NCBI GenBank assembly: GCA_026125895.1
Contig: JAHCKG010000012.1
Location: forward strand, 1-64,000
Source of the DNA: Pseudolabrys sp.
GTDB taxonomy: Bacteria; Pseudomonadota; Alphaproteobacteria; Rhizobiales; Xanthobacteraceae
Reading direction: 5' to 3'
DNA length: 64,000 bases
Shown: piece by piece, positions 9,878 to 33,451 of the stretch
Numbering within the stretch: position 1 is the first letter of the stretch
Layout: every line of letters starts with the position of its first letter
Translations under genes and position numbers: made by a program
Notes under the pieces: model-generated
What the model was told of the DNA's origin: nothing
The model's input: only the letters and a program-made list of their open reading frames with translations
Database searches by the model: none

Positions 9878-9925
9878 GTTGGTCGGGGCGGCGAGATTTG
9901 AACTAACGACCCCTAGTCTCCCAGA
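9878..9925 (-). repeat. attachment repeat, displaced 3' end of tRNA-Pro
   Basis: These 48 bases match 33404-33451 at 47 positions; the one difference is A at 9905 against C at 33431, which would break a pair in the T-stem. They correspond to the tRNA-Pro gene from the anticodon loop to the CCA end plus two further bases, read on the minus strand. Beyond 9925 the similarity stops, so this is not a working tRNA but the original gene end pushed away by integration. Confidence 0.93.
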
Positions 9926-10042
9926 TCGAATTTACGGCTTTTCCGGATTTTCACCGACTTTCCTTAGGTGCCAAAAGTGCCTTGATTACGGCTACTTTCG
10001 CAATACTGTGTTTCCCCAAGTCTCCTCTGATTTGCCCGCGCC

Positions 10043-10062
10043 GTGGCTACCCGGTGCCTACA
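10043..10062 (+). repeat. candidate integrase arm-type repeat, left end
   Basis: GTGGCTACCCGGTGCCTACA here and a copy with 18 of 20 identical bases at 33320-33339 lie 118 and 65 bases inside the two attachment repeats, in the same orientation. Paired short repeats just inside both ends are the usual layout of arm-type integrase sites. The left copy overlaps the first possible GTG of the integrase, which argues for a later start codon. Confidence 0.45.
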
Positions 10063-10075
10063 CGGGAAGAACTGG

Positions 10076-11401
10076 GTGCCCTCTGTCCACAGACTAACGA
10101 AGAGCCTCGTCGACGCCCTCGAGCCGGGCTCCAAGACCAAGTTGACCTACGACGGGGAGCTGGCCGGGTTCGGCGTCCGCGTAACGCCCGCCGGTGCCAA
10201 ATCGTGGATTGTTGAATATCGGGCCGGCGGAGGCGGGCGGACGGCGCCCAAGCGCCGGATGACGTTGGGGTCGGTGAAGACGATCACAGCCGACCAGGCG
10301 CGGCGCACCGCGAAAGACATTCTTGCCCGCGCGCGCCTTGGCGAGGATCCAGCGGCCGAGCTCGCTGAAGACCGACGTGCCGCCACGGTCGCCGATCTCT
10401 CGGAGCGATTTCTCGATCATGTCAGGGCGACAAAGAAACCTCGTACCGGTGATCTATACGAAATTTACTTTCGGAAGCATGTACTGCCTGCGCTCGGGCC
10501 AAAGAGGGCGCGCGACGTCACGCCGCGAGACGTTGATCGGCTGCACAAACGCATTGGCCAGACGGCCCCGATTACAGCCAATCGCGTCATCATGCTGCTT
10601 TCTGGCTTTTTCCGATGGGCCGGTAAAGGCGCTCAGGGCGAGGTGCCGCGCGATTTTGCACCGACCGCTGACATCGAGCGGTTCAGAGAAGCGCCCCGCG
10701 AACGATATCTGACGCCCGATGAGTTCGCACGTCTTGGCGATGCGATCCGCCAGGCCGAAACTGTCGGCGTTGCGTATGAGGTTGATGAAGCCCGGCCGAC
10801 GGCGAAGCACGCTCGTAAGCCCGAAAATAGACTTCGGCACATTGACCCGCACGCAGCAGGCGCAATCCGCCTGCTGCTATTCACCGGCGCTCGGCTGCGA
10901 GAAATTCTGCATCTTCGATGGGATGAAGTCGATTTTAGCCGTGGCGTCCTCTGGCTTGCTGATAGCAAGACCGGCCGCAAGCCGATTGTTCTCAACGCGC
11001 CGGCGCTCGCGGTCCTTTCGTCACTTCAGAAGCTGCGCATAGGCCATTACGTCATCGCCGGCGCATTCGCCGGCCGCGACGACGAGAAGCCGCGAACCGA
11101 TCTCAAAAAGCCATGGGCGCTCGTTTCAGAGCGCGCGGGCCTATCCGGCGTTCGAATACATGATCTTCGTCACAGTTTTGCGAGTGTCGGCGCCGGCGAA
11201 CACCTTGGCTTGCCAGTCATTGGTAAGCTCCTCGGCCATCGAAACCCAGAAACAACGCAGCGCTACGCACACCTAGCGGACGATCCGCTTCGCCGCGCCA
11301 GCGAACGAATTGCTGCCGGCATTGCGGCGCGGCTAGGCGAGCCCGTGGCTCAATCTGCGGACGTCATTCCGCTGAACCCCGAGCGCCAGACGAAGGGGTA
11401 A
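10076..11401 (+). CDS. int: tyrosine-type site-specific integrase
   Basis: Catalyses integration and excision of the element at tRNA-Pro. About 441 residues. The order is an amino-terminal DUF4102-type domain (L-T-Y-D-G-E-L-A-G-F-G-V-R-V), a core-binding SAM-like domain (about residues 110-190) and a catalytic domain with all expected residues: Arg in T-G-A-R-L-R-E-I-L, Lys in D-S-K-T-G-R-K, H-D-L-R-H-S-F, G-H-R-N-P-E-T-T and the nucleophile in Q-R-Y-A-H-L. It is therefore probably active. The start is uncertain: GTG at 10076 is used because an upstream GTG at 10043 lies inside a terminal repeat; similarity to the family begins only around V-H-R-L-T-K. Confidence 0.93.
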   Translation: MPSVHRLTKSLVDALEPGSKTKLTYDGELAGFGVRVTPAGAKSWIVEYRAGGGGRTAPKRRMTLGSVKTITADQARRTAKDILARARLGEDPAAELAEDRRAATVADLSERFLDHVRATKKPRTGDLYEIYFRKHVLPALGPKRARDVTPRDVDRLHKRIGQTAPITANRVIMLLSGFFRWAGKGAQGEVPRDFAPTADIERFREAPRERYLTPDEFARLGDAIRQAETVGVAYEVDEARPTAKHARKPENRLRHIDPHAAGAIRLLLFTGARLREILHLRWDEVDFSRGVLWLADSKTGRKPIVLNAPALAVLSSLQKLRIGHYVIAGAFAGRDDEKPRTDLKKPWALVSERAGLSGVRIHDLRHSFASVGAGEHLGLPVIGKLLGHRNPETTQRYAHLADDPLRRASERIAAGIAARLGEPVAQSADVIPLNPERQTKG

Positions 11402-11405
11402 GCCG

Positions 11406-12326
11406 ATGTCTAGCGCACCCGAATTTCCCGTGCGGATGAAGCAAGCGCTGCGGCGGCCGCTCTTCACCGCCGACGAAGCTGTCGCGAATATCCCGGCGTC
11501 GGTCGATCCTACCCCGGCCGCTAACATTGCGGCGACACTGAATAGAGTTTTTGACGAAGCTCTAACCTGGGCCGATCATGATGATCGGATCCCCAGCCCC
11601 ACCGCCCTCAAGAGGTTTTACGGGAACGTTGCCACCGCGGCGGAGAGGCTTCGCGAGCTGCTTGGATCGGATGCCATACGCTGGTTGCAGCGAGATGATT
11701 TAACGTCTCGGTACTATGGCGGCGAGCGAGCTGTCGAACTTCAGAAAATGGTCGATCAGGCGACAGTGTCTGCCTTGATGTCCCAGCCGGAGGGCTATGT
11801 GCTGGCGCTGCAAGCCAAGCCGGAGATCTCGCTCGCTTCATTGAGGGAGGAAGTGGTTGGCGACACCATCGGCGGAATTCCCGCCGCGCTTCGGACAATT
11901 CAAACTCTCGCGGACTTCTGGAGCAGCATTGAGGTGGTGGCGCCGGCACAGGCCAGATTTGGGCGCGCATTTCAACGCGAGGTGTATCGCGGCCTCGCGC
12001 AGCTTCACCTTGACCGGTTCGGAGAGCTCCAACTCGGTCGGCGCGACGATCTGCCGGGCGATAGTTCTGGAGCATCCGACCAATGGGTGAACCATGTCGC
12101 CCACCATGCGTTGCGGGCGGTTGATCAGAGCGGTGTTGACCTCTTCGACGAAGATTTCCTTACTCGGCGCGCGTTCGACGACGTGAAAAAGGCCTTCCTC
12201 GACTTCAAGGTAAAAACGGCATTCGCGCACGGCGAACGACTAAGCGGTCTGGCTGTGGATATCAGGACGGACTTTATGCGCGAGTGCTGGCCTCGCACAA
12301 GTCATTGGCTGACCGATGATATTTGA
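11406..12326 (+). CDS. hypothetical protein of the element, mostly helical
   Basis: A 306-residue soluble protein that I do not recognise. It begins five bases after the integrase stop, so it is probably co-transcribed. The composition suggests helices throughout, with no signal peptide, membrane segment, zinc pattern or nucleotide-binding loop. A segment around residues 225-260 (Q-W-V-N-H-V-A-H-H-A-L-R-A-V) contains two adjacent histidines but no clear catalytic pattern. An inverted repeat follows its stop at 12336. It could be an excision or immunity factor because of the neighbouring integrase, but nothing in the sequence establishes that. Confidence 0.65.
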   Translation: MSSAPEFPVRMKQALRRPLFTADEAVANIPASVDPTPAANIAATLNRVFDEALTWADHDDRIPSPTALKRFYGNVATAAERLRELLGSDAIRWLQRDDLTSRYYGGERAVELQKMVDQATVSALMSQPEGYVLALQAKPEISLASLREEVVGDTIGGIPAALRTIQTLADFWSSIEVVAPAQARFGRAFQREVYRGLAQLHLDRFGELQLGRRDDLPGDSSGASDQWVNHVAHHALRAVDQSGVDLFDEDFLTRRAFDDVKKAFLDFKVKTAFAHGERLSGLAVDIRTDFMRECWPRTSHWLTDDI

Positions 12327-12335
12327 AACGGGGGT

Positions 12336-12431: not shown

Positions 12432-12626
12432 ATGGCACAGCGCTATCGCGATACCGCCGAGACCGCCCAGCGCCTGAACCTGAGCGTTTCGACCCTCAAC
12501 AAATGGCGCCTCACCGGCGAGGGGCCGCGTTTCATCAAGCTGGGCCGCCGCGTCGTTTACGGCGACGAGGACGTCGACGAATTCGTCCGGCAGCGCTCAC
12601 GGCAATCAACCGCCGAATTCGCGTGA
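12432..12626 (+). CDS. AlpA-like helix-turn-helix regulator
   Basis: A 64-residue winged-helix protein of the MerR/AlpA excisionase type: T-A-Q-R-L-N-L-S-V-S-T-L-N-K-W-R-L-T-G-E followed by G-P-R-F-I-K-L-G-R-R-V-V-Y and D-V-D-E-F-V. In P4-like satellites and integrative elements such proteins activate integrase or act as excision factors. An ATG at 12417 is also in frame, but the ATG at 12432 has GGAG nine bases upstream and is preferred. Its small size and position after the integrase unit fit a recombination directionality or transcription factor. Confidence 0.82.
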   Translation: MAQRYRDTAETAQRLNLSVSTLNKWRLTGEGPRFIKLGRRVVYGDEDVDEFVRQRSRQSTAEFA

Positions 12627-12634
12627 GCTCGGCC

Positions 12635-13153
12635 ATGGCCAAGAAACCCAAGCGCGGCCGGCCGCTGGGCACGTCGCTTTATTGCGAGGCGGTCATGGCG
12701 CGGGCGCTGACCGAGGCCTTGCCGCCGATGCGGCCGCATACCGCCGCTGGCTGGATCACCGTCGCAATGGCCGAGAGCTTCGATCTCGCGGCCCTGATCT
12801 ACATGGGGCCAGGCGGCCCGGCCTTCATGGTGAGGCTCTCCGCCGACACTCGAATGGCGAGCTTCAATTCCAAGACCAAGCATCTCGCCGCCGTCGTCGA
12901 CAAGATCTTCCGAAGCGGCCCCATGCGCGACCGATGGGCGGCGCTCGAAGACGTCGCGACCTGGCGCGGGGCAATCCGAGCGTTCCGCGTCGGCGACTGG
13001 CCGGGCTTCGATCGAGCGATGTCAGACCTAGCGGGACGCGGCTGGGGCCAAACGCTCAACATTCTGCGCCGGCGAGTGCTCGAGATTGCCGCCCTCGGCG
13101 GAGCGATGCCGCCGGACATGTCCGGCAAACCAAAACGAAAGGCTCGGCGCTGA
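12635..13153 (+). CDS. hypothetical protein of the element
   Basis: A 172-residue basic protein I cannot assign. The beginning M-A-K-K-P-K-R-G-R-P-L-G looks like a short AT-hook-like basic arm. The middle contains W-I-T-V-A-M-A-E-S-F-D-L-A-A-L-I, and the end is again basic (K-P-K-R-K-A-R-R). A GTG at 12623 overlapping the stop of the preceding HTH gene (GTGA) would be a coupled alternative start. The stop lies inside a strong terminator-like hairpin (13138-13168), so it is the last gene of a short unit. A DNA-binding role is only suggested by charge. Confidence 0.6.
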   Translation: MAKKPKRGRPLGTSLYCEAVMARALTEALPPMRPHTAAGWITVAMAESFDLAALIYMGPGGPAFMVRLSADTRMASFNSKTKHLAAVVDKIFRSGPMRDRWAALEDVATWRGAIRAFRVGDWPGFDRAMSDLAGRGWGQTLNILRRRVLEIAALGGAMPPDMSGKPKRKARR

Positions 13154-13212: not shown

Positions 13213-14274
13213 ATGCCGACCAGTGATGGCGAGCAAGATGAAAATGACGCTGACGGCGCATGGCGCCCCAGCGGGGAAATGGACGATGACTTGCCTGACG
13301 ATCTCTTCGCCGAACCGGCATATACAGGGCTTCCATTTGTCACCAGCGGCGAAGACGCTGCACGGCGTTGGATCATCGACGGGCTAATCGCTCGGGGCGA
13401 TGTCTCTCTATTGATCGCACCACCCTTTGGCGGAAAGAGTGTACTCACCGCGCACCTGGCGCATCATGTGGGACGCGGCGCGCACTGGTTCGGACGCGGG
13501 GCTACCCGCACCGGGGTTCTTATCATTGCCGGCGAGCGCGCGCGGGAACAACTGCGGCGCATTGAAGCGCTCACGGTCGAGCACGGCGCCGCCGACGTCT
13601 TCGTCGTAAACGGTGCCGGGCTGGATCTTCGCCGGCGAGAAGATGCAACCGCCCGCATAATTCGCACCGTCGCAGCCGCTCGGCAACGTTGCTCCGAAAT
13701 CGGCTTAATCATCTGCGATACGCTGGCGAGCCTGAGCACTGGCGCCGATGAAAACTCAGGCGCGGACATGACGCGAAGCATGGCCAGCCTGGCGGCAGTC
13801 AGGGACAACATCGGCGGCCACGTCATGGCGGTGCACCACACGCCGCGCGACAATCCGCGCGCCGCCCGAGGGCATTCCTCGATCGACGGCGCCGCCGATA
13901 TGATCCTCGGGTTAGACCGGCCGAACGGCCGCCATCGCTGGCGCGTGCTCGCCGCCAACGGGCTGCCCGAGCCGTTCCCGACGGCAGAATTCTCCATCGG
14001 CTCTCATGACGGCCCGGACGGATCGACGGCTATCGTTCGATCGGTGGCGGCTGAACTGTCGCCGCGCGACGCCGCGGTGCTGGCCGGGCTACGGAAGGCA
14101 GGCCAGCCCATCAATGTCGCCGAGTTTATCCGCACCATTGCCGATGACGCCCTGCCAGCTGAAGGGGACGCCAAGCGCAAGGCGTGCGAGCGCGCCCTTG
14201 AGGCTCTCAACGCCGCCGGCCTGGTGCTGATCACCGGAACCGGGCGGACGCGCTTGGTGCGCGCCGCCCCATGA
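13213..14274 (+). CDS. RepA-like AAA/RecA-fold replicative ATPase
   Basis: A 353-residue ATPase of the RepA/KaiC-like helicase group found in plasmids and phage satellites. Phosphate-binding loop P-P-F-G-G-K-S (about residues 71-77), Walker B L-I-I-C-D-T-L-A-S-L (about residues 162-171), and a later conserved V-H-H-T-P (about residues 204-208) with G-H-S-S-I-D-G-A-A-D are seen. These fit a hexameric helicase or origin opener. The carboxy terminus is predicted to be a winged helix. The array of TGTCC/GGACA motifs begins four bases after its stop, which supports a replication role. No primase domain is seen, so host or helper primase would be needed. Confidence 0.83.
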   Translation: MPTSDGEQDENDADGAWRPSGEMDDDLPDDLFAEPAYTGLPFVTSGEDAARRWIIDGLIARGDVSLLIAPPFGGKSVLTAHLAHHVGRGAHWFGRGATRTGVLIIAGERAREQLRRIEALTVEHGAADVFVVNGAGLDLRRREDATARIIRTVAAARQRCSEIGLIICDTLASLSTGADENSGADMTRSMASLAAVRDNIGGHVMAVHHTPRDNPRAARGHSSIDGAADMILGLDRPNGRHRWRVLAANGLPEPFPTAEFSIGSHDGPDGSTAIVRSVAAELSPRDAAVLAGLRKAGQPINVAEFIRTIADDALPAEGDAKRKACERALEALNAAGLVLITGTGRTRLVRAAP

Positions 14275-14277
14275 TCC

Positions 14278-14457
14278 GGACACGCCCACCATGTCCATAT
14301 GTGTCCACACTGTCCTTTTCGGTGGACGCTGGACTGCCGCTCCGGCGCATCCGGACAAACCGGACAGCCCCCTTAAAGAGGGGGCGTTGTCCGGAGTTTT
14401 TGTCCACTCCGGAATGCGCGCCGGAAGCGGACGCGGCAAGTCTGTCCATTCGTGTCC
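14278..14457. repeat. iteron-like array, candidate replication origin
   Basis: Ten copies of TGTCC or its complement GGACA lie in 180 bases, at 14278, 14292, 14302, 14311, 14353, 14362, 14388, 14401, 14443 and 14453. Several neighbours are 9-10 bases apart, one helical turn. Five copies extend to TGTCCA. A C5-T/A-G5 hairpin (CCCCCTTAAAGAGGGGG) sits in the middle. The array directly follows the RepA-like gene. An open frame crossing it is ignored because its similarity and likely start lie after 14468. Confidence 0.65.
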
Positions 14458-14467
14458 AGAGCGTCCA

Positions 14468-14740
14468 ATGACCGATCGGATGACCCTTAAGGAACTGCGA
14501 TTGGCCAAATGCCAAAAGTGCGGGCATGAGGGCGTGGTGCCGAAGGTGGCACCGACGACGGCGCGCCTTCGCTGCCGAGCATGCGGCCAAGCAATGCAGT
14601 TGCGACACGCCGTCGGCCTGCGCCCGTGTCTTCTCAAGGCGAACAACGGCAAGCGTGCGATGCAGAACAAGCGCGCCGCCGAGGTCGCGCAGCGCTACTC
14701 GCCGCTGCCTGAAGGCGGAGACGGCCTTGATGACATCTAA
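14468..14740 (+). CDS. small zinc-ribbon-like protein
   Basis: A 90-residue basic protein with two C-x2-C knuckles: C-Q-K-C-G-H (about residues 15-20) and C-R-A-C-G (about residues 38-42), spaced like a zinc ribbon. The rest is rich in Lys and Arg. Small phage zinc ribbons often bind nucleic acid or regulate late genes, but no specific family is recognised. The start is the ATG at 14468, after the iteron-like array; an earlier in-frame ATG at 14291 would translate the repeats and is rejected. Confidence 0.6.
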   Translation: MTDRMTLKELRLAKCQKCGHEGVVPKVAPTTARLRCRACGQAMQLRHAVGLRPCLLKANNGKRAMQNKRAAEVAQRYSPLPEGGDGLDDI

Positions 14741-14887: not shown

Positions 14888-15412
14888 ATGGCGAAGAAAT
14901 CATCGAAAAAGGCCGTAAAAGCGGGCACAAAGTGCGACACAAGTCGCGGATTATCAGGCATCGAACTTGCGCTGGAATGCGACATCAGCAAGCAGCGGAC
15001 CTCACAACTCGAGGCCGAAGGGGTCTTCGTTCGGAATTCGGCCGGCCGATTTGAGCGGCGCCGGAATGTGATTGCCTACATTCGCCGCGTCCGTGATGAA
15101 AGCCGGGAAAGTTCACGTTCGCCGGAGGCAAAACGTTTTCTTGCGGCGAAGGCGCAAGCCGCGGAGCTTCGCAACGCAGCCACCGAAGGCGAGTTGATCC
15201 CAATCGCCACGGTAGCGGAAGCGGTGGAAGAAATGGTCTCCGCATTTCGGTCGGAGCTGTCGGGCGTGCCCGCTGCCTCGAGCCGCGACCTCGACGTTCG
15301 CGCCTCGATCGAAGGTCACCTGAATGCAGCAATCGAGCGCTGCCGCCAGCGGCTCGAAAAGCTTGCGCCGGACATCGCGGCGGGCCGCGATCCGCTCAAA
15401 TCCACAGCCTGA
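14888..15412 (+). CDS. Nu1-like phage terminase small subunit
   Basis: A 174-residue protein with a basic tail (M-A-K-K-S-S-K-K), an amino-terminal helix-turn-helix with L-S-G-I-E-L-A-L-E-C-D-I-S-K-Q-R-T-S-Q-L-E-A-E-G-V, then a long helical part with A-K-A-Q-A-A-E-L-R-N-A-A-T-E-G-E-L-I-P. This last pattern (a charged helix followed by G-E-L-I-P) is common in Nu1-like DNA-packaging proteins, which recognise the packaging site. No large terminase follows. If the assignment holds, the element could redirect a helper phage's packaging motor, as satellites do. AGGTGACGGT before the ATG is a fair ribosome-binding site. Confidence 0.65.
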   Translation: MAKKSSKKAVKAGTKCDTSRGLSGIELALECDISKQRTSQLEAEGVFVRNSAGRFERRRNVIAYIRRVRDESRESSRSPEAKRFLAAKAQAAELRNAATEGELIPIATVAEAVEEMVSAFRSELSGVPAASSRDLDVRASIEGHLNAAIERCRQRLEKLAPDIAAGRDPLKSTA

Positions 15413-15510: not shown

Positions 15511-15858
15511 ATGTCGAAGCCACTCGCGAAGTCAACGTTCACCGTTCCGCGTCTCAAGGCGGTGCTGGTCGCGGCCCGCGAAGACGCGAACGCCGCGCGT
15601 CTCGAAATGCGCGCGGCCAATCGAACGATTTTGAGGGCCCTGTTGCTGCGCGACGATCGGGCGGCGCTGGAAGGTCGGGAGCGCGAACAGGTCGCCAGGG
15701 TCGCCTTACGCCGGTCGAATGAGATCATCACGGCGGCGCTTGCCGAGTTGGCAGAAATGAACGCGCGGTTGCCGGCGCTCGATCCGAGCCATATGGCGAG
15801 TAATCCGGATGCGCTCCTGACCATCATCCGCAACGCCATCACCGCGGAGCTCGCATGA
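15511..15858 (+). CDS. small helical protein of the element
   Basis: A 115-residue protein, nearly all charged helix, with heptad-like spacing in R-D-D-R-A-A-L-E-G-R-E-R-E-Q-V-A-R-V. No known family is recognised. It follows the small terminase, and its stop overlaps the next start (ATGA), which supports a shared transcript. A copy of the TTTTTCA[AG]AATTG motif stands 35 bases before the start. Confidence 0.55.
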   Translation: MSKPLAKSTFTVPRLKAVLVAAREDANAARLEMRAANRTILRALLLRDDRAALEGREREQVARVALRRSNEIITAALAELAEMNARLPALDPSHMASNPDALLTIIRNAITAELA

Positions 15859-16094
15859 CACCGAAGACATCAGCCGCTCACGCGATTGTCGTCGCAGAGA
15901 TCTACGCGGGGCGACGGCAACCCGCGGCCGTCACGCCGACCATCATCACGAAGGGTTCGGCTCTTGACTGTCGCTCAGTCTACGCGAGCCGCACTGCGCA
16001 AGTCGCCAATGCGCAAACTGAACCCGCCAGTGAGAAAATACTCAGCGTGTCCGACGCGATTTACGCATTTCGTCGGCCTGGTCGGCGTTGCTAA
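15855..16094 (+). CDS. hypothetical small protein
   Basis: A 79-residue frame starting with an ATG that overlaps the stop of the preceding gene (ATGA), the main support for it being real. There is no recognisable motif; the composition is not strongly biased and no membrane helix is evident. It could also be a chance frame between two genuine genes. Confidence 0.35.
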   Translation: MTPKTSAAHAIVVAEIYAGRRQPAAVTPTIITKGSALDCRSVYASRTAQVANAQTEPASEKILSVSDAIYAFRRPGRRC

Positions 16095-16115: not shown

Positions 16116-16967
16116 ATGAAGAAAAAAGCAAATGCGATTACCGAGATCGAGGAGCGGATTGCCGCCGCCGAACGGGAGGGCGCGGCCGCGCGCGAAAGCC
16201 TCCCCGAGCTCGAAGCGGCACGGACTGCCGCGATCCGGAACGCGACCGACGCTGAGGTCGACGAGATTGAGGAGAAGCTGCGGCTAGCCCGCCGGACGGT
16301 CGAGCGTGCGGACGCGCGGCTCGAAGTGGCCAAGGCAGACCTTGGGGTCGAACGCGAGCGGGTTCGAGTGTTCGAACAAGAAACACTCGAAGAACGAGCG
16401 GAGGCGGCAGCAGCCAAGGCGGCTGAGCGACTGACTGTGGTGTTTGGCGAGATCGCGCAGGGAGTGCGGGGAGCCCTTCGGGCTCAAGCCGAAGCGGATC
16501 GCTTGATTGAAGCGGCAAACCGGGGCCGTACCGAACCCCTTCTCAGCGTCGAGGCGCGTTGCAGAGCAAAGGCCGCAGTGCCGCGACGGCTGCTGTCGGA
16601 AGAGACGATCCGCGAATGGGTCTACTCCGGTACCATGAACCGGATCGGATCGGACCGATCCGGCGAAGTTCGGTCGTCCGACGGACAGAGAGGAGTTCTG
16701 CCGGGAACGGGGATGAACCCCGTGGGCAAAAGTGTGGAGAACCGCAAGTTTATGAAACGCACGTTTGCTCCTGCGGTGCGCCACTTCGTTCCGGGCGAGC
16801 TTGCCGCGACCCTATCAATCCCGGCGCTGATCGCCGGCGATCGCCCAATCTGGTCGCCGCTCAACTTTGTGTCGCCAGAAGCAGTCCTGGCCGCGCTCGA
16901 CAAGCTCGAGGCGAGCGATGTCGAGAAGCCCCCCGTCGAAGTCGAATACGCTCCTCTGGAGCATTGA
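16116..16967 (+). CDS. coiled-coil structural protein of the element
   Basis: A 283-residue protein with a good ribosome-binding site (GGAGATCTCGT before ATG). Residues 8-135 are dominated by Ala, Glu and Arg in heptads (for example I-E-E-R-I-A-A-A-E-R-E-G and L-R-L-A-R-R-T-V-E-R-A-D-A-R-L), giving a long coiled coil. The last 75 residues are less helical (G-E-L-A-A-T-L-S-I-P-A-L-I-A-G-D-R-P). It occupies the position where portal, capsid and head-tail joining genes would normally lie but resembles none of them. A scaffold or capsid-size-altering role is conceivable but not shown. Confidence 0.6.
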   Translation: MKKKANAITEIEERIAAAEREGAAARESLPELEAARTAAIRNATDAEVDEIEEKLRLARRTVERADARLEVAKADLGVERERVRVFEQETLEERAEAAAAKAAERLTVVFGEIAQGVRGALRAQAEADRLIEAANRGRTEPLLSVEARCRAKAAVPRRLLSEETIREWVYSGTMNRIGSDRSGEVRSSDGQRGVLPGTGMNPVGKSVENRKFMKRTFAPAVRHFVPGELAATLSIPALIAGDRPIWSPLNFVSPEAVLAALDKLEASDVEKPPVEVEYAPLEH

Positions 16968-23230: not shown

Positions 23231-23243
23231 GTGTCGGTCTCTC

Positions 23244-26026: not shown

Positions 26027-26038
26027 GGGGAGGGCACG

Positions 26039-26683: not shown

Positions 26684-26733
26684 CGCGGCGAGGGCGGGCG
26701 GCGAAGGCTGCTCGCCCGTAACTGCGAGATTTC

Positions 26734-27462
26734 ATGAGTGGTGAGATGGAAAGTCCCTTTCGCGAACTACAGCTCGCACAAAAGCGCGCTGATCGGGCGG
26801 CTGCGCGAGCTTTCATTGACGCCTGTCGGCTAGGCGATGCCGAAGCCCTGTTCTCCGCGGTAGACGCCATTGCCGAAACGACGTTAGATGGATGGCGCTT
26901 AGCGATGCTCGGCACTGCCGCACTGCCGAGTGTTGCGCCGCAAATTCAAGAGGCCTTCTTGGCGGTGTGGATCGAATACAAGATGCTCGCGCTCAACGTT
27001 GGGCACCGCCCGACGTTGGTCCGTGCCCTTCGCTTGCTTTTGCCGCCGAGATCGCCCGCGCAGGCCGTCAGATTGTTTCGCGGCACTAGTGGCATTGAGC
27101 GACGTCACCGCCTCTATGGCGTCTCTTGGACGTCATCACGCGAGATCGCCGAGACGTTCGCTCGATCGCATGAAGCGTCGCGGCTGGGAGGCGTGGTGCT
27201 CGAAGCTGTCATAGAGCCGCACGCCATCCTGCACTTCCGCGATGCCGAGGGGCACTACGACGAGGTCGAGCACATCGTCGACGCGTATAAAATCCGCGGG
27301 GTCGAAGTGGCGGCCCGCTTCCAGCGGAGACCGGCCGTCGCCAGCCGGCAAGATCAGGATTTTGTCCGAGGAATAGGCTCCGGCCACATAATCTATTGCC
27401 GCATCGTCGCCCCGACCGCAGTGCTTCGCCGGTACAAAGCAGAAGAACTACGATCTGGATAA
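26734..27462 (+). CDS. putative ADP-ribosyltransferase-like protein
   Basis: A 242-residue protein. The second half shows the R-S-E layout of ADP-ribosyltransferases: V-R-L-F-R-G (Arg116), then G-V-S-W-T-S-S-R-E-I-A-E-T-F-A (residues 129-143, with S-W-T-S like the S-T-S motif), and H-Y-D-E-V-E-H-I-V-D (Glu177/Glu179). Spacing between these elements, about 15 and 45 residues, is plausible for the fold. The first 100 residues are helical and may target a partner. The gene is third in the C4-led unit. A phage ADP-ribosyltransferase could modify host proteins or act as a toxin, but activity is not shown and the Glu environment is not textbook. Confidence 0.5.
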   Translation: MSGEMESPFRELQLAQKRADRAAARAFIDACRLGDAEALFSAVDAIAETTLDGWRLAMLGTAALPSVAPQIQEAFLAVWIEYKMLALNVGHRPTLVRALRLLLPPRSPAQAVRLFRGTSGIERRHRLYGVSWTSSREIAETFARSHEASRLGGVVLEAVIEPHAILHFRDAEGHYDEVEHIVDAYKIRGVEVAARFQRRPAVASRQDQDFVRGIGSGHIIYCRIVAPTAVLRRYKAEELRSG

Positions 27463-27689
27463 GTTCTTCATATTCACGACCGTCAGCGGCATCGGCCCCG
27501 TATTCAGCCAGATCGGCACCGCCCTCACGCAACTTCGGGTCGCCAAATAATCGAGAATAAATCAAAACGCTGTCTCCCACCTCATGGCGAACGCCACATC
27601 GGTAGGGCGGAGACCGCGAAGGCTGCCCGCCGCTGAGTAGTGCGCGAATTGTGCACGGCGAGATATTGTTTCCGCGGCCCGCTATCCGA

Positions 27690-27953
27690 CTATTCGCGCG
27701 CCAGAGCCGACTTGCCCTTGAACTTCCTCTTGAAAGACTCTGCGTCACTTCGTTCGGAAAAGCACCAGCGTAAGAAATATTGCGTGTCGCCGCGGCGGAG
27801 AGTACCGCGACGGCCGTCGATGCCGCGCCTGGCGCGCCAGTTGAGTATGTCGTCGACCTTTGACCCTAAGCCACCATGCGGAGCAAGAATTTCAACGATG
27901 TTAGGAAACTTCTTTAGTTCTCTTATCGTCGATAAACTGCTCTTATGATCCAT
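27690..27953 (-). CDS. small protein, paralogue of the 30537 gene
   Basis: An 87-residue protein that shares with the gene at 30537-30797 the pattern F-P-N-I-V-E-I, H-G-G-L-G-S, I-L-x-W, R-G-T-x-R-R, Y-F-x-R-W-C-F and a closing A-x-x-F helix. No known domain is recognised; it looks like a compact alpha-beta fold. Both copies are on the minus strand within the element, 2.6 kb apart. Confidence 0.6.
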   Translation of the reverse strand: MDHKSSLSTIRELKKFPNIVEILAPHGGLGSKVDDILNWRARRGIDGRRGTLRRGDTQYFLRWCFSERSDAESFKRKFKGKSALARE

Positions 27954-28165
27954 GGCCTCCCCAGATGATGCGTCGACAGTGCCTCAGCGGAGCAGCAATA
28001 GGGTTCCGACAAGCAGACAACATATTGCCAGCGAGATCGCCATAGATCGTGTCATTCGCGACCTTTTCTTTATTCCCTGAACACCGCTAGCGGGCTGAGC
28101 TTCACGCATTTTCTATGTGTAGTAATACTGATAGCCTTTTAAAAGATTCGGGATAAGAGGGGCAG

Positions 28166-28486
28166 TTGTCAAATCCGAAGGCGAAGCTACAGCAGGACCT
28201 GATCCTGGCGCATGCTGTCGGCGCTACATTGATAGCTGTGTTGACCGATCTTATGATCGAGTATTCCAAAGAAGTAGACGGCTCGCTCGACGATGGGCTG
28301 ATGCGCGCTCGCGCAGTTCTAGATCGAAGCTTGGGCCAACTACGGGCTGAAGCAGTTGGGCCCGCCGGCGAAAAGCTCGACGCGGGCGCAATGGTGCGGA
28401 CAAGAGTGAGCGCTATGTTTGACATAGCCGACCGCAACGCGCGGCATATGCTTGGGTTGCCTCCGACGTCTCCCATGAGAAACTAG
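28166..28486 (+). CDS. small helical hypothetical protein
   Basis: A 106-residue protein with a TTG start after AGAGGGGCAG. It is helical throughout, with D-L-I-L-A-H-A-V-G-A-T-L-I-A-V-L-T-D-L near the start, which is moderately hydrophobic but not a clear membrane span. No family is recognised. It begins 213 bases after the divergent small-protein gene and is followed by a ribbon-helix-helix gene. Confidence 0.45.
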   Translation: MSNPKAKLQQDLILAHAVGATLIAVLTDLMIEYSKEVDGSLDDGLMRARAVLDRSLGQLRAEAVGPAGEKLDAGAMVRTRVSAMFDIADRNARHMLGLPPTSPMRN

Positions 28487-28538
28487 TAAGCCTGGTAATT
28501 CGCTATTTGCAAAAACGCCCGAACGCAGTGGATAGATT

Positions 28539-28799
28539 ATGCCGCTGAGGAATTCTGAGCTCAATATCAAGAAGCGGTCGATCGTTATCGATGGACACAA
28601 GACGAGCGTGAGCATTGAGGACGAATTTTGGGACGGATTAAAAGAAATCGCTGAGGTGCGAAAAATGTCGGTGGGTGGCGTGATCAGTGAGATTGACAGG
28701 GTTCGTTTGGTCGGAAATTTGTCATCTGCCATCCGCGTATTCGTGTTGCTATATTTTAAGGAGAGCGGAGGCGGCGAACGCTCGAATGAAGCATTCTGA
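28539..28799 (+). CDS. ribbon-helix-helix domain protein
   Basis: An 86-residue protein of the RHH_4 type: K-K-R-S-I-V-I-D-G-H-K-T-S-V-S-I-E-D-E-F-W-D-G-L-K-E-I-A forms the beta strand and first helix, and S-V-G-G-V-I-S-E-I-D followed by L-S-S-A-I-R-V-F-V-L-L-Y-F completes the fold. Such proteins are small DNA-binding regulators, often wrongly named as sulfotransferases in automatic annotation. It probably regulates neighbouring element genes; its operator is unknown. Confidence 0.78.
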   Translation: MPLRNSELNIKKRSIVIDGHKTSVSIEDEFWDGLKEIAEVRKMSVGGVISEIDRVRLVGNLSSAIRVFVLLYFKESGGGERSNEAF

Positions 28800-29246
28800 G
28801 GTAGGCGCGAGTTGTTTCAATCTCTCTCTGACAGACGACGAAGCGGTGTTGGCCGGGATGACCATCGCATGAAGGCGATGCAGGGATCTAAAATCTTGCG
28901 GCCTCAATACGTGACACCTTGCCGCTTGATCGGAGGCGTCGCGCCGCGGCGTGCCGGTATCTCTGAGGACGCCTGGCCGATGCAAATAAAAAGGTTTCCG
29001 AGATCGGGCAGCCTGGCGCTCGCCTTGATAGGCGCTTCGGTCCGCCGTCTGGCTCTTGGCGGACAACCGGTGCGAAAGGAGGGCGCCAATCCGGGGGCTT
29101 AAGTCATTTAGCGTCAGCTCTGGCGGCTAGATCGCTTCCGCGCTTGTTTATGGCCGGGGCGGTATATTATCCCGCTATGGCGGCTATTGTCCCGGCAGCT
29201 TCAAAATTGCTTTCAAGAAAATATCTCCTTCCTAAAAGGTAGTCTC
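28800..29246. other. 447-base stretch without a confident gene
   Basis: A plus-strand frame (28812-29102) crosses this region, but it has no good start, motif or recognisable similarity and is rich in Arg. AT content rises toward 29200, just before the Rap1a-like gene, where a promoter would be expected. Nothing else could be supported. Confidence 0.4.
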
Positions 29247-29615
29247 ATGAAGCCTTTGCTAATCGTCCTTTTTATGGCGATCACCAATGTGGCTTGGGCC
29301 GGCCCCGGCGAAGAAGCAAGGCATACGGCGGGCGTGATCGAGGGTTGCCGATTGGTCGCCCATGACAAGCTTCCGCAGACCAGAATCGCTGCGATGCAAT
29401 GGGGCATTTGTCTTGGAACAGTGCAGTCCTTTCAGATTGCGAGCGGTCATCTTCAGCCCAACATGCGCAGCTGTATCCCGTCAGAGGTGCCGGTACAGCA
29501 AGCGGCTAACGTGTTTTTGCAGTTTGCCGAAAATCATCCGGAACGCCACCATGATGGCATCGAAGTTTTAGCTATTGAGGCCTTCAAAGCGGCTTGGCCC
29601 TGTCAGGGCAACTAG
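29247..29615 (+). CDS. Rap1a/Tai-like immunity protein, exported
   Basis: A 122-residue protein with a signal peptide (M-K-P-L-L-I-V-L-F-M-A-I-T-N-V-A-W-A). The mature part has the Rap1a/Tai pattern: early G-C-R-L-V-A, then W-G-I-C-L-G-T-V-Q-S-F, S-C-I-P-S-E-V-P-V-Q-Q-A-A-N-V-F-L-Q-F-A, N-H-P-E-R-H-H, and a closing A-F-K-A-A-W-P-C. The four spaced Cys residues could make two disulfides, as in that family. Rap1a proteins protect the periplasm from type VI amidase effectors; no cognate effector is encoded nearby, so this is an orphan immunity gene or has another role. ATG at 29247 is preceded by AAAGGTAG. Confidence 0.7.
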   Translation: MKPLLIVLFMAITNVAWAGPGEEARHTAGVIEGCRLVAHDKLPQTRIAAMQWGICLGTVQSFQIASGHLQPNMRSCIPSEVPVQQAANVFLQFAENHPERHHDGIEVLAIEAFKAAWPCQGN

Positions 29616-29705
29616 AGAAGTTGGTCGCCCAAAAGGGCCACGCAGATTTGGCAAACTAACGAAAAGGCGCCAATCGCAATCCACAGGTCCAAAAAGGGCC
29701 AGTAC

Positions 29706-29918
29706 CTACGCCGCCTCGGGGGATGGCTTCCCCTGGGCGTCGACAGAACGCGTCGCCTCGTGGCCGCACTGGCGACAGGTGAAGCGCTGCTCTTCAAAAT
29801 CGCTGCCGAGCTGCGGGTGCGGCGAGCGGCGCGTCAGCATCATCTCGCCGTGACAACTCTTGCACGCGAGAATGTCATGAGCGCCGAAGTTCCCGGGCTT
29901 TGCGGTGACGAGATACAT
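29706..29918 (-). CDS. small zinc-ribbon protein
   Basis: A 70-residue protein with C-K-S-C-H-G (about residues 19-24) and C-R-Q-C-G-H (about residues 48-53), a typical zinc ribbon spacing. The rest is polar. It resembles short zinc-ribbon proteins scattered through Bradyrhizobium-like genomes, whose function I do not know. A nucleic-acid role is a guess. A related upstream frame on the same strand (ending near 29875) has M-R-T-N-Q-D-W-T-E-F and may be a separate small gene. Confidence 0.5.
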   Translation of the reverse strand: MYLVTAKPGNFGAHDILACKSCHGEMMLTRRSPHPQLGSDFEEQRFTCRQCGHEATRSVDAQGKPSPEAA

Positions 29919-30536
29919 TCGATGCCTGAACTAGAGCAACGCGGTGTTCCAGCCCGATCAAGCCTAGACGCGCCCTGGCCAGAGGACAAGAGAGTTCCAG
30001 CCCGGCGGCAGTGCGGATGCTCATGCGTCTGATAAATGTTCTCTGTTCCAGTAGTACAACAAATTCGGTCCAATCCTGATTTGTTCTCATATTCAAAGCT
30101 GGCTATCCGTGTCGCAAGCGACGTCACTACGGGTCGAACCCGAGCTCGGGGTCGGCACGATAGGTCACCGTCGCCGTTCGCAGAAAATTAATCCGTTTTA
30201 CGAAACAGGATATTGGATGCGGTGTTTGTTCTTGCTCCGATCCCGGCTCGTTCGAGGTTCAATTTGGGTGTACCGGAGGCGACGGAACGCGGGTTCTCGG
30301 TTCGGTCCTCATAGACGACATCCAGGGGGTGATCTTTCGCAAGAAACCTCGGCCAGCGCACGGCGCATCTTTCCTCAATGGGCGCCTTCCTATTCACGTG
30401 TCTGATCACCGGCATGGCGCGCCGACGGCAACGCGCCGAATGTCTTGGCGCCGGTCGCGTGCCCAGCTTGCGGAAAGCTTCGCCTGATAACGATAGACGG
30501 CAAAATCTTGGGCCGCAGTGTGTCGCAGCCGGCCGG
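29919..30536. other. 618-base stretch without a confident gene
   Basis: Short frames exist on both strands, the best a minus-strand frame at 29875-30096 beginning M-N-M-R-T-N-Q-D-W-T-E-F-V-V-L-L-E. None has a domain I recognise, and the longer ones overlap each other. The sequence is mixed in GC. It may hold decayed genes. Confidence 0.4.
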
Positions 30537-30797
30537 CTACGGCGCCGCTATCAGTTCGCCGACAAACTCCAGCGCGAACGTTGCGGCGTCTTCATCATCA
30601 GCAAAGCACCACCGAACGAAATAAGCGTCAGCTTCCCGCCGGACGGTGCCGCGGTGCGATATGAGGCCATGGCGTCGGTGCCACGCAAGTATCGCGTTGG
30701 CGCGGCTACCGAGCCCGCCATCCGGTACTGGAATTTCAACGATGTTGGGAAATTCCCGCTCATTTCGCCGGGCGGATGCCCAGCTAATCTTTGACAT
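30537..30797 (-). CDS. small protein, paralogue of the 27690 gene
   Basis: An 86-residue protein. It shares F-P-N-I-V-E-I, D-G-G-L-G-S, I-L-A-W, R-G-T-V-R-R, Y-F-V-R-W-C-F with the gene at 27690-27953. The ATG at 30797 is chosen because the similarity begins there; the open frame reaches further upstream without match. Nothing in the sequence reveals the function. It lies just downstream of the protease operon (186-base gap) and on the same strand, so it could belong to it. Confidence 0.6.
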   Translation of the reverse strand: MSKISWASARRNEREFPNIVEIPVPDGGLGSRANAILAWHRRHGLISHRGTVRREADAYFVRWCFADDEDAATFALEFVGELIAAP

Positions 30798-30982
30798 GTC
30801 GTCGCCTTTGATGACTAAAGGTCGGCGGCCACCCGAAGCAAGCGCGGAGGGCGACACGAGCGGAGTTCGACCAAAAACCCGCTCGTGTCGCACCATCGCC
30901 GCACTGTTTCCAGCGCAGACGATGGCGAGTGACAAATGCACGTCTTCCGCAGCGATTTCAATCCTTTCGTCGCCAGTGCGGT

Positions 30983-31882
30983 TTAAGGCTGTGAGCCATA
31001 CCTAGCGCGCCTCGCCAAATCGATTGAGTGTCTCACATCTTCGCGCTCGAGCAATTCGGTCAGTTTCCACGCAGGTACGACGCCCATCATCCCTGTGTTT
31101 GATTTGACGTACCAATCGCGGTTTCGTTCTGTCGTTCGGATGTCGCGGAGGGGTTCGCGTGTGTAGATGTGGCAAAAATCGATGCCGAGCAAAGGCGGAT
31201 CGAATGGCAGGCCCAAGTGCGTGAATTGACGGGCCGTGACATATCGCGGGAGCATGCCAGCGAGTTGCTCCAATAGTGTATCTGGTACGGCCGGCTGTGA
31301 AGGAAAGTGGACAAAGACAGGAGAGCCGCTGAACCCCGAAATGGACCGTGCCTCCACTAAAAAGCAAGGTGGGCGCGAAATTCCGCCATCGAAGGTCATT
31401 GGTTCCGTCGGCATTTGCGCAATATTTCCAAAGCGAGCGGTCGGAGTATTGGAAAGTTGACCTTCGCGCTTGGTAAACCTGCCTATGAAGAACACATCGT
31501 CGCCGGGACCGATGTCGAGCTCATCGAGTTTTGCTTCGGTAATAAGCGACCACGGAAAGATGTAACTCACTGCGGACAAGTCGTTGATGACGGCGGGGCA
31601 GGCCACGACGTCCTCACCCGACGGTAAGTGGAACCAATCGCGATCGCTCAGATCAATGGTGTTCACTCCTATCGCAGTGTTCAATCGAGCGACCTCGTTG
31701 CCCCCATCGATTACGTGCTTGTTAGTGATGAAAACCGGAACAATCTGACTGTTGTCAGGCGGGTCGGTGGGGACGCCAACAATGAAGCCGCTTCCGCCGA
31801 TGCTCGCACCTTCATCGGCCGCCATCTTGGAGGGGTAAAAATAGACGACGCTTTTCAGATGACGGTCAGAGATCCGGGGCAA
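30983..31882 (-). CDS. trypsin-like serine protease of the terminal operon
   Basis: A 299-residue protein of the S1/HtrA fold without signal peptide. Visible triad: His in F-I-T-N-K-H-V-I-D, Asp in I-N-D-L-S-A-V-S, and Ser in S-I-S-G-F-S-G-S-P-V-F-V, the last being the classic G-x-S-G-S-P. An early G-S-G-F-I-V-G and D-D-V-F-F-I-G-R-F also fit. A PDZ domain is absent. The chosen start is TTG at 31882 with AGGAG seven bases upstream; the longer open frame overlaps the previous gene out of frame and lacks similarity. It is the last of four minus-strand genes. Trypsin-like proteases linked to short partner domains are known in bacterial conflict loci. Confidence 0.8.
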   Translation of the reverse strand: MPRISDRHLKSVVYFYPSKMAADEGASIGGSGFIVGVPTDPPDNSQIVPVFITNKHVIDGGNEVARLNTAIGVNTIDLSDRDWFHLPSGEDVVACPAVINDLSAVSYIFPWSLITEAKLDELDIGPGDDVFFIGRFTKREGQLSNTPTARFGNIAQMPTEPMTFDGGISRPPCFLVEARSISGFSGSPVFVHFPSQPAVPDTLLEQLAGMLPRYVTARQFTHLGLPFDPPLLGIDFCHIYTREPLRDIRTTERNRDWYVKSNTGMMGVVPAWKLTELLEREDVRHSIDLARRARYGSQP

Positions 31883-31985
31883 ACGTGTGCTCCTGTTAGC
31901 GGCTTGCCATCGGCAACCGATTCGGGCGTGCGACGAACATCCCTCCCGCGCTGCCGATTTTACCTGGCTTCGGGGTCGGTTACGG

Positions 31986-32576
31986 TCAGTTTCCACGAAG
32001 AAGCTTGTCGACGTCGTCGACAAACCGCTCAGCCTTGTTTCGAGCGGCGCGCAGCTTCGTCACCGCCTCACGGATAGTCGAGGTGTTAAAAAGGATGTCA
32101 TTTAGGTCGGCGTTGAGTGTCGAGATGGCGTCGAAATTAATGTCACCTTCATTGGCAATACCTCGGAATGAGAGCGAATTCTGTAAACTGATCGCCGTTT
32201 GGCGGGCCTGTTGTGTCGCATTATTGAGTGTCATCAGATAATTCATGACATTCTGGAAGTCCTGTTGGTTGAGCAATACGCTAGTGCCAAAGCGAGGCGG
32301 CGTATCCAGCAGGTCCGTCTGAACTCTCTCGAAAACTCTAATAATTTGATCAACAGAATCGAAGGCGTCCTCGAGCCAGCGGATCAGCGTTCGCACTTCT
32401 TTTCTCGTAGCGTTACGGCCGTGATCATCGTCTGAGCGACTGCGGTTTGGCAGGCGAATAAACGCCTGCCAGGCTGTCGCTAGCGTCGCGACGCTCGACA
32501 GGAGCGAGAGCGATTGCACGACGATATCAAAAGCATCTGGATCGTGTTCTCTGGGTGCGCAGCGATGTTTCGTCAC
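31986..32576 (-). CDS. helical partner protein of the protease operon
   Basis: A 196-residue mostly helical protein. Residues 16-40 (D-I-V-V-Q-S-L-S-L-L-S-S-V-A-T-L-A-T-A-W-Q) are moderately hydrophobic and might associate with a membrane. Later come W-L-E-D-A-F-D-S-V-D-Q-I-I-R-V-F-E-R-V and long helices ending A-R-N-K-A-E-R-F-V-D-D-V-D-K-L-L-R-G-N. I recognise no family. GTG is the start, after AAAGGGGGG. It lies 22 bases after the small beta protein and 103 bases before the protease. An adaptor or target of the protease is a plausible inference. Confidence 0.6.
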   Translation of the reverse strand: MTKHRCAPREHDPDAFDIVVQSLSLLSSVATLATAWQAFIRLPNRSRSDDDHGRNATRKEVRTLIRWLEDAFDSVDQIIRVFERVQTDLLDTPPRFGTSVLLNQQDFQNVMNYLMTLNNATQQARQTAISLQNSLSFRGIANEGDINFDAISTLNADLNDILFNTSTIREAVTKLRAARNKAERFVDDVDKLLRGN

Positions 32577-32598
32577 GAAGCCCCCCTTTGGTTTGCGG

Positions 32599-32787
32599 CT
32601 AACGCCGCTCGTCCAATTGCGCGCTGACGAACGTCGGCGCCGACGTATTGATGATCTTCTCTCGGCCAGCCTCTTTGATCTTCACGAGAGGAAGGGCGAC
32701 TTCGATCACCTGCACACTGATGCTGCCGATCGTTTCAAGCGGGCCCTCAAGCATGGTCCACGTATACCACTTGCCGGGAACGAACAT
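32599..32787 (-). CDS. small beta-rich protein of the protease operon
   Basis: A 62-residue protein: M-F-V-P-G-K-W-Y-T-W-T-M-L-E-G-P, then S-I-S-V-Q-V-I-E-V-A-L-P-L-V-K-I-K-E, and I-I-N-T-S-A-P-T-F-V-S. Alternation of hydrophobic and polar residues suggests a small beta barrel (SH3-like). A strong ribosome-binding site (GGAGGA, seven bases before ATG) supports translation. It follows the SWIM gene by 16 bases. No family is recognised. Confidence 0.6.
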   Translation of the reverse strand: MFVPGKWYTWTMLEGPLETIGSISVQVIEVALPLVKIKEAGREKIINTSAPTFVSAQLDERR

Positions 32788-32803
32788 GATCGATCCTCCG
32801 ATG

Positions 32804-33139
32804 TCAGCCCATCATGAGCCTGGCGATGTTCTTCTTCTCGCCGTTGATCCGAGCTTTGATTTTCGTCGCCTCATCCTCAAGCTGAGCCAGCGCAGCAATC
32901 GACGCGGCTAACGCTGTTCCTGTCACCAGCGCCGATAGCGCCTTCAAGTCGTCGACGTTGCGGCTTTCAAGTTGCGTCACGTCGCCGGCGATGAGAGCGA
33001 GGCGATGCTTGCAATGCTGATCGTTTCCCGCGGCCTGACAGGTGCACGAAAAGCGGATGCCGGCGGCCGTCTGATAGGCCTCGAGCTGATAAGTGTCGAA
33101 GCTCGACGAAGACCTTACCTTGAAACGATATCGTGCCAT
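32804..33139 (-). CDS. SWIM-type zinc finger protein
   Basis: A 111-residue protein, first of the four-gene minus-strand operon next to the tRNA end of the element. The SWIM pattern is plain: F-S-C-T-C-Q-A-A-G-N-D-Q-H-C-K-H (C-x-C-x8-C-x-H), preceded by Y-Q-L-E-A-Y-Q-T-A-A-G-I. The rest is a helical tail, with L-S-A-L-V-T-G-T-A-L-A-A-S-I-A-A-L and a basic end. SWIM fingers bind nucleic acid or protein. ATG 33139 is selected over earlier in-frame starts because similarity begins at M-A-R-Y-R-F-K-V. Confidence 0.68.
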   Translation of the reverse strand: MARYRFKVRSSSSFDTYQLEAYQTAAGIRFSCTCQAAGNDQHCKHRLALIAGDVTQLESRNVDDLKALSALVTGTALAASIAALAQLEDEATKIKARINGEKKNIARLMMG

Positions 33140-33319
33140 CGCAGCCCCCATCCCGGTTGCATAATCGATTGGAGACAGCTTTCGGTCAATGAGACGCGCG
33201 GAGGGGCAGAAGGTGGGGCGATAGGCTTCAGGCCGCATCCGCTCCGAAAGTTCGACCGCAATTGGTGAAGGGTGTCGCGCTCTACACGGCGCGGCGCAAG
33301 ACCAGGCTTAGCCTTTGCG

Positions 33320-33339
33320 GTGGCTACGCCGTGCCTACA
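33320..33339 (+). repeat. candidate integrase arm-type repeat, right end
   Basis: GTGGCTACGCCGTGCCTACA matches the left copy at 10043-10062 in 18 of 20 bases and in the same orientation, 65 bases inside the right attachment repeat. It lies in noncoding sequence between the terminal operon and tRNA-Pro. Confidence 0.45.
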
Positions 33340-33403
33340 TGCTCGACGGCGGCAGCTCGCGCGAGCGGCGTCCTAAGAAAAAGATCAGCATAATGAAGGG
33401 CTT

Positions 33404-33451
33404 GTTGGTCGGGGCGGCGAGATTTGAACTCACGACCCCTAGTCTCCCAGA
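33404..33451 (-). repeat. attachment repeat at the intact tRNA-Pro
   Basis: The 48 bases from here match the copy at 9878-9925 with a single mismatch. This copy is the functional end of tRNA-Pro, covering anticodon loop through CCA. Together the two repeats mark the ends of the integrated element. Confidence 0.93.

Follow-up and report, generated by a model that had tools for sequence, protein, structure and literature searches.

Analysis of a 64,000-nucleotide stretch of a Pseudolabrys sp. chromosome (GenBank assembly GCA_026125895.1, contig JAHCKG010000012.1, positions 1 to 64,000; hereafter the window) reveals a 23.6-kb element at 9878..33451, inserted in a tRNA-Pro(GGG) gene, that carries genes for a small terminase subunit (TerS), a tail assembly chaperone (TAC) and a tape measure protein (TMP), with no recognised head genes. 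We propose, with a probability of roughly 0.7, that this is a tailed-phage satellite integrated in the chromosome and equipped with tail-initiation genes of its own, and not a decaying prophage. We favor it because the TAC-TMP pair recurs in integrase-bearing elements that share a 283-aa protein, here called P283, and because of a recurrent frameshift signal in the TAC gene, low omega in three TMP pairs, and empty insertion sites in relatives. Loci in other genomes are referred to by L numbers and genomes by G numbers.

The element and its insertion site

The features on which the interpretation is built are as follows.

9878..9925 (no strand), attL, a 48-bp partial copy of the tRNA-Pro 3′ end, identical to 33404-33451 at 47 of 48 positions
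10043..11401 (+), tyrosine integrase, 452 aa (PF00589, 3.5e-20; phrog_1, 4.5e-56)
13213..14274 (+), AAA_25 ATPase, a helicase/primase-like replication protein (PF13481, 5.7e-33; phrog_906, 6.7e-38)
14888..15412 (+), TerS (phrog_57, 1.1e-17)
16116..16967 (+), P283, 283 aa, the satellite marker, with a long N-terminal helix (from profile A2, neighborhoods and a structural model; putative scaffold or redirector)
17305..17643 (+), TAC, zero-frame product (phrog_24302, 2.2e-14; phrog_166, 1.4e-3; similar to the TACs of L059 and L062)
17595..17601 (+), slippery heptamer T_TTT_TTC, a -1 frameshift signal in the TAC frame that recurs in relatives
17601..17768 (+), -1 frame extension of TAC, 55 codons, gpE-like by eye, overlapping the TMP start by 4 nt
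17765..20248 (+), TMP, 827 aa, intact (similar to phage tape measures and to relatives in the order)
33404..33451 (no strand), attR, where the intact tRNA-Pro(GGG) at 33406-33483(-) has its 3′ end

With its site-specific ends and integrase, this is an integrative element. An earlier note on this DNA had described two 48-bp repeats and a restored tRNA; both are confirmed, the tRNA-Pro(GGG) being complete at the right end. It had also proposed examining the tRNA-Pro site in related genomes, and of five same-genus loci two (L147 and L148) lack the element there, with homologues of window genes 1483-3003 and 33514-34821 flanking the same tRNA-Pro at about 50-90 bp; the other three (L146, L149 and L150) keep the tRNA and the right neighbor and differ on the left. 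The repeats and these empty sites show that the integrase put the element into tRNA-Pro. The locus has changed more than once, because an extra block (3016-9831) sits between the conserved left neighbor and attL and is absent at the site in L147 and L148, and because the tRNA-Pro is oriented unlike those of L146-L148, an orientation that varies among same-genus loci. A full prophage with the same ends in related genomes, named in the earlier note as the contrary case, was not found among the loci compared.

Two further observations concern this site. By eye, the genes at 3016-9831 resemble those for a TRAP transporter, a regulator and a sugar kinase. Near a contig end, L017:332-12550 contains a portal gene, a TerL-like ORF (TerL, large terminase), a TAC-like ORF and a TMP gene, adjoining a tRNA-Pro(GGG), the tRNA type of the window.

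The left half of the element, integrase through TMP, lies entirely on the + strand. Neither PHROG searches of 20 window ORFs nor Pfam searches of 29 distinct ORFs (30 scans, since part of one ORF was scanned twice; the smaller ORFs located at 27-33 kb lay outside the scan) gave a match to portal, capsid, TerL, sheath, tube or lysis families, in agreement with the gene content first described, and no baseplate or fiber gene was recognised in the window. It had been suggested that a sensitive profile search might yet reveal a large terminase or capsid within 11406-17130; the ORFs scanned there, those from TerS to TAC among them, gave no match to a head family, and no capsid remnant was found in the window. 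The window is thus without a complete virion gene set, and the head and tail operon of a complete or recently decayed prophage, intact or as remnants, was not recognised among the ORFs scanned. The small terminase candidate is upheld by its phrog_57 match, and the chaperone with its frameshift site and the intact tape measure, whose start overlaps the frameshift extension, were likewise found as described.

Relatives of the tape measure

The window TMP has no PHROG or Pfam match for its own sequence, but is similar to 14 Burkholderia/Acidovorax phage records, mostly annotated as tape measure (23-29% identity over 20-38% of the length, best E 9e-10). The TAC match to phrog_24302 is to a family of unassigned function. 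Relatives of the TMP were found in seven other genomes among 297 of the order. Of six long ones (L012, L013, L014, L015, L016 and L017), two (L014 and L016) are close to a gene for a tail sheath and three (L012, L013 and L015) lie within about 3 kb of an integrase. Viral contigs queried with the TMP yielded pattern matches and no confirmed relative.

Two of these loci have features of their own. At L012:8486-15098 and L013:8467-12865 the TMP is near an integrase without P283 and with few other phage genes seen, and these are possibly more TMP-bearing islands. A seemingly truncated TAC frame in L012 overlaps an excisionase-like ORF (by eye), and beside the TMP locus of L013 (L013:390-7419) are Cas9-like and Cas1-like ORFs and a CRISPR-like repeat array (by eye).

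P283 as a family marker

A single-sequence search with P283 detected five other genomes among 297. Profile A2, built from eight P283 rows (one being L015, which was reached through its TMP), gives matches in 25 of the 397 genomes of the order (E<=1e-3, the window's own genome counted, some matches weak) and in 12 of the 198 genomes of the family (E<=1e-8, its own again counted), with no match in the 10 other same-genus genomes of the family search. At the level of the class, two of 385 genomes match at E<=1e-12, the window's and one weak match (G878). Contig searches gave nothing with profile A4 and, with profile A5, only the two Labrys loci already in the set; P283 queries of viral contigs gave pattern matches and no confirmed relative, and among 50,697 phage records there is no match to P283 (E<=0.1) or to TerS (E<=1e-3). 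The named relatives are Methylobacterium and Labrys (Labrys okinawensis RP1 holds two P283 elements, L162 and L163), and the P283/TAC-TMP lineage is seen under eight family labels in one order. No group of this kind is described in the titles and abstracts searched, a coverage with most subscription papers and all preprints outside it.

P283 is also encoded by three circular Methylobacterium plasmids of 20.0-21.0 kb, typed as non-mobilizable (L151, pMNOD05; L152, pMRAD08; L153, pM44602), which may be plasmid-form satellites. An AAA-family ATPase is present in all three, and pMRAD08 adds a match to TerS, a large terminase of gpA type and a protease of S49 type.

We assembled 30 loci with P283 at E<=1e-13, comprising the window, L015 and 28 loci from P283 searches, all from within this order or from the Methylobacterium plasmids, with ORFs in relatives called by a simple custom ORF caller. 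The set leaves out L112, L113, L114 and L070 (P283 E >1e-13), as well as G507, G878 and the seven weakest A2 order genomes (E 2e-5 to 3e-4), whose surroundings were not retrieved. A TMP gene lies within 5 kb of P283 in 17 of the 30 loci (the window, L015, L057, L058, L059, L060, L061, L062, L102, L105, L106, L109, L125, L128, L129, L130 and L131), or 15 of 28 when the window and L015 are excluded. PHROGs named a TMP in all ten tested (L057, L059, L061, L102, L105, L106, L109, L128, L129 and L131) and also in L015; those of L058, L060, L062, L125 and L130 were called by profile or sequence similarity. TerS is found within 6.3 kb of P283 in 14 loci and an integrase within 11 kb in 20 (one just an 88-aa match). 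Four of 15 relatives tested (L058, L108, L126 and L132) have P283 inside an element of 8.9-13.5 kb flanked by direct repeats of 21-56 bp; that of L058 is 11.2 kb long and lies in tRNA-Lys with 47-bp repeats at its ends.

Eight TMP- and P283-bearing loci (L128, L130, L102, L059, L062, L061, L109 and L058) were scanned for head genes; with TMPs and most integrases set aside, 124 ORFs of 90 aa or more were called, and the scan took in 118 of them. Among the families listed, which are 25 of 67 PHROG and 25 of 29 Pfam families, there is no TerL, portal, major capsid, tube or sheath; those present include TerS (4 members), TAC (3), primases, a head maturation protease and, in L061, a Mu-type baseplate hub, so that TMP and hub occur together in that locus.

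Three candidates were rejected: an L106 match to the L110 capsid query that PHROGs did not confirm, a 108-aa TMP candidate at a contig end in L104 that matched only itself, and an 85-aa TerS match in L061 that was left out of the counts. Two groups of loci are recorded separately. In L070:10509-13191 a weak P283 (1e-8) is followed by TMP similarity over three ORFs adjoining a 422-aa ORF that contains TerS, perhaps a decaying relative. The TerS proteins of four loci in genome G238 (L063-L066) resemble one another, and three of the loci encode an AAA ATPase of about 730 aa and two a window-like integrase, a multi-copy TerS island family in which neither P283 nor TMP was recognised.

Recurrence of the frameshift signal and selection on the tape measure

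A TAC was scored as having the frameshift signal if an in-frame T_TTT_TT[C/G] lies in its last 90 codons and the -1 extension runs at least 40 residues past the stop. Six of nine TACs tested qualify (the window, L015, L059, L062, L102 and L109, those of L062 and L102 being close copies), as do three of 420 other ORFs of 80-200 aa at the same loci. Seven TACs have a candidate site, and in all of these but L015 the end of the -1 extension falls no more than 20 bases from the start of TMP. Omega for TMP is 0.146 for L060/L061, 0.113 for L102/L062 (a partial TMP) and 0.170 for L130/L173, the three pairs close enough to be measured. Together with the recurring signal, these values point to function being kept.

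Exchange of the tail-initiation genes, and tape measure length

Pairwise comparisons of these loci show discordant identities. L128 and L130 have integrases that are 99% and TerS proteins that are 93.5% identical, whereas P283 (44%), TAC (28%) and TMP (43%) have diverged; L062 and L102, two loci of genome G272, are alike in TMP (93% over 325 aligned residues) and TAC (83%), with P283 at 45%. Between L130 and L173, a head-bearing locus of genome G478 (L173:1-15605), identity is 93% for TAC and 89% for TMP. L173 combines a partial integrase, at its edge, with portal, protease-capsid fusion, TAC, TMP, TerS and TerL; tail tube, sheath and baseplate were not recognised there in 20 kb, part of the ORFs having been profile-searched. 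These identities indicate that TAC-TMP is a cassette exchanged between elements, and its exchangeability suggests matching to a helper phage.

In G478 the satellite L128 has a TMP of 685 aa, compared with 674 aa in L173, 688 aa in L174 and 697 aa in the sheath- and tube-bearing prophage L175; sheath-bearing loci of other genomes have TMPs of 839 and 880 aa, against 827 aa in the window. The similar lengths in G478 argue against a tail-shortening role there. The earlier note had proposed a satellite supplying its own tail-length determinant. The satellite part of that proposal has gained support from the recurrence, the frameshift, the omega values and the empty sites; the change in length has not where lengths are comparable (685 versus 697 aa in G478).

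A possible role for P283

A model of P283 built from three sequences has a mean pLDDT of 56, with a confident helix over approximately residues 1-100 that runs on to about 135 at lower confidence; the C-terminal half is unmodelled. In six loci P283 is beside a head protease or capsid gene, of S49 type in L129, L131 and L152 (in this last, pMRAD08, the S49 gene overlaps the P283 start), of Clp type in L060 and L061, and a protease-capsid fusion in L110. This is where a scaffold gene would lie, and our best guess from context and helix is that P283 is a capsid scaffold or redirector. Competition with the helper scaffold has been proposed for satellite proteins of Staphylococcus aureus, Rcm among them (PMC12409344).

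Alternative explanations

A number of observations weigh against the satellite interpretation. No close relative of the exact window element was found, and selection is for that reason measured only in its relatives; among these, the L060/L061 comparison has a high synonymous divergence (dS 1.29) and L061 carries a head protease, L173 of the L130/L173 pair carries a head, and L174/L175, moderately diverged and not P283 loci, have a TMP omega of 0.23. More diverged TMP pairs give omega of 0.42-0.78, values that are unusable because dS (1.2-1.9) is saturated. The TMP is not obligatory in P283 loci, since 13 of the 28 have none recognised within 5 kb, and gene order varies, with P283 after TMP in L015 and TerS between P283 and TMP in L105. 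Confirmed capsid genes occur in P283 loci L110 and L105, the latter with TMP too, and large terminase genes in L133 and L152 (from record annotation in L152); the head-gene scan of the eight loci covers the 25 of 67 PHROG and 25 of 29 Pfam families listed. The named TAC matches in the window are weak (phrog_166, a tail family, and Phage_TAC_7 at 2.4e-3, under the Pfam cut-off), the L128 TAC has only a slippery candidate of another type, GGGAAAG, and the L130 and L173 TACs have no candidate. The putative role of P283 is drawn from context and a model confident over residues 1-100 or so. Finally, the search for a helper through the tape measure, as the earlier note had advised, was unsuccessful in the element's own assembly (82% complete), which has no second A1-type TMP and no sheath gene.

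One alternative is a prophage made defective by the loss of its head, connector and lysis genes, in which TAC and TMP would be left over; TerS, TAC and TMP all belong to the late genes of phages and follow the order found there, and the window TMP resembles those at the sheath-bearing L014 and L016. We nonetheless regard this as quite unlikely, as comparably reduced gene sets are found again in elements that differ in integrase, tRNA site and TMP type (one relative, L058, is bounded by its repeats in tRNA-Lys), the frameshift signal recurs, omega is 0.11-0.17 in three TMP pairs, and among the loci compared there was no complete sister prophage with these ends; a conserved minimal set under purifying selection in headless relatives is seen in part. 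Somewhat less improbable, if still unlikely, is a degenerate satellite of the capsid-forming kind (cf-PICI, from phage-inducible chromosomal island, PICI) that has lost its capsid genes and kept tmp. Here L173, with head genes and no recognised tail tube, sheath or baseplate, has the same TAC-TMP cassette as L130, P283 locus L105 has both capsid and TMP, and tmp genes are reported in some cf-PICIs (PMC12987554); set against this, TMP- and P283-bearing loci without recognised head genes are the commoner kind here, and no capsid remnant was found in the window. Least probable of all in our estimation is a prophage-derived defense or interference island, not itself packaged, in which TAC and TMP would be decoys that poison the tails of incoming phages. 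A satellite protein that targets tail assembly, Rta, is known (PMC12987554), and among the genes of the element are PDC-S45, a PADLOC candidate, and one resembling the Panacea antitoxin, but the element retains TerS, integrase and replication ATPase, as expected if it is packaged and transferred, and its TMP is full length. A gene transfer agent was considered as a further reading and set aside.

A model for the satellite

If the element is a satellite, its helper would be a tailed phage with a P2-like tail, judging from the TMP. After induction or helper infection the ATPase/replication module would amplify the element, and TerS, which is present without TerL, would steer the helper large terminase to satellite DNA. 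P283 would take part in building the head; given its long helix, and its head-protease and capsid neighbors in relatives, its most likely role would be that of a redirector of the capsid resembling a scaffold. TAC would be made in two forms by the predicted -1 frameshift and would load the satellite TMP, on which helper tube, sheath and baseplate would assemble into a chimeric tail, as experiments have shown for the Vibrio PICI-like elements (PLEs). The likely benefit would be replacement of the helper TMP and TAC, giving priority or escape from tail-assembly interference, and not a new length; we prefer substitution because TMP length matches ordinary tails where it can be compared. More broadly, the family may keep only specification genes, namely TerS (which DNA), P283 (scaffold and head size) and TAC with TMP (tail initiation and length), borrowing bulk parts and swapping TAC-TMP for new helpers, with some members perhaps Methylobacterium plasmids of about 20 kb; we consider this generalization possible but put it on the doubtful side of even.

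Relationship to known satellites and phages

PICIs carry an integrase, their own TerS and a replication module, and are typically without tail genes. The window has TerS and the ATPase of this set, yet has TAC and TMP too. P4-like satellites are characterized by the Psu/Sid/Delta set, and these names are absent from the Pfam matches of the 29 window ORFs, P4 proteins not having been compared directly. In the P2-like phages (Burkholderia phage AP3, Peduoviridae) there is TMP similarity and the same arrangement of a TAC and gpE-like frame before TMP, but their head, sheath, tube, baseplate and fiber genes are not recognised in the window element. The PICIs, including those of S. aureus, resemble the window in having a helical capsid redirector (Rcm, CpmB) as a proposed analogue of P283 (PMC12409344), and differ in their marker protein and in the window's possession of TAC and TMP.

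The closest parallel is provided by the Vibrio cholerae PLEs, for which PMC12987554 reports chimeric tails formed from the satellite's own TMP, TAC and sometimes baseplate hub together with helper proteins; capsid and most tail proteins come from the helper, tmp and tac occur across variants, and deletion of tmp reduces transfer by 96-99.9%. The window likewise encodes its own TMP and TAC, a likeness in gene content, and the TMP/TAC/BhuB set that the same report gives for PLE11 is paralleled by TMP and hub in L061. The two differ in that PLEs belong to another host order (Vibrio, with a helper of the ICP1 type) and the window family has TerS and P283. Among cf-PICIs (PMC12987554, PMC11389934), some have putative tmp genes listed (PMC12987554). 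L173 looks like this type, as do L105 and L110 among the P283 loci; cf-PICIs encode their own capsid, portal and terminase, whereas in the window only TerS is recognised. The suggestion that a satellite-borne tail-length determinant lies outside the known satellites is thus not sustained: that view is out of date because of the PLE chimeric tails, reported in March 2026 as the first known for satellites, and some cf-PICIs have putative tmp genes besides (PMC12987554). What is new here is the lineage, the P283 marker and the cassette swapping, the principle of an own TMP and TAC being already known from PLEs. If the interpretation is correct, this would be a further lineage with the TAC and TMP logic and tail-initiation piracy would be a general satellite strategy; the natural swaps between L128 and L130 and between L130 and L173 allow TMP-helper matching to be tested, and P283 is a search handle for such islands, which are scattered through one bacterial order.

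Remaining genes of the element

Other features of the left module and the cargo are listed below.

11406..12326 (+), 306-aa protein of no family (no Pfam, PHROG or PADLOC match)
12503..13153 (+), 216-aa protein of no family (Pfam and PHROG scan)
14291..14740 (+), 149-aa protein, weak zinc-ribbon matches, all under Pfam cut-offs
15511..16094 (+), two small ORFs of 115 and 79 aa, no family (Pfam, PHROGs)
20361..20813 (+), SocA/Panacea antitoxin-like cargo gene (PF13274, 7.8e-13)
20776..33238 (no strand), cargo region with GGDEF, RHH_4, Rap1a-like and trypsin-like PDC-S45 genes and other unassigned ORFs
21697-22830, GGDEF (cargo, Pfam)
28539-28799, RHH_4 (cargo, Pfam)
29187-29615, Rap1a-like (cargo, Pfam)
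30983-32023, trypsin-like PDC-S45, a PADLOC candidate (cargo)

The right half of the element, which holds this cargo, is mostly of lower GC.

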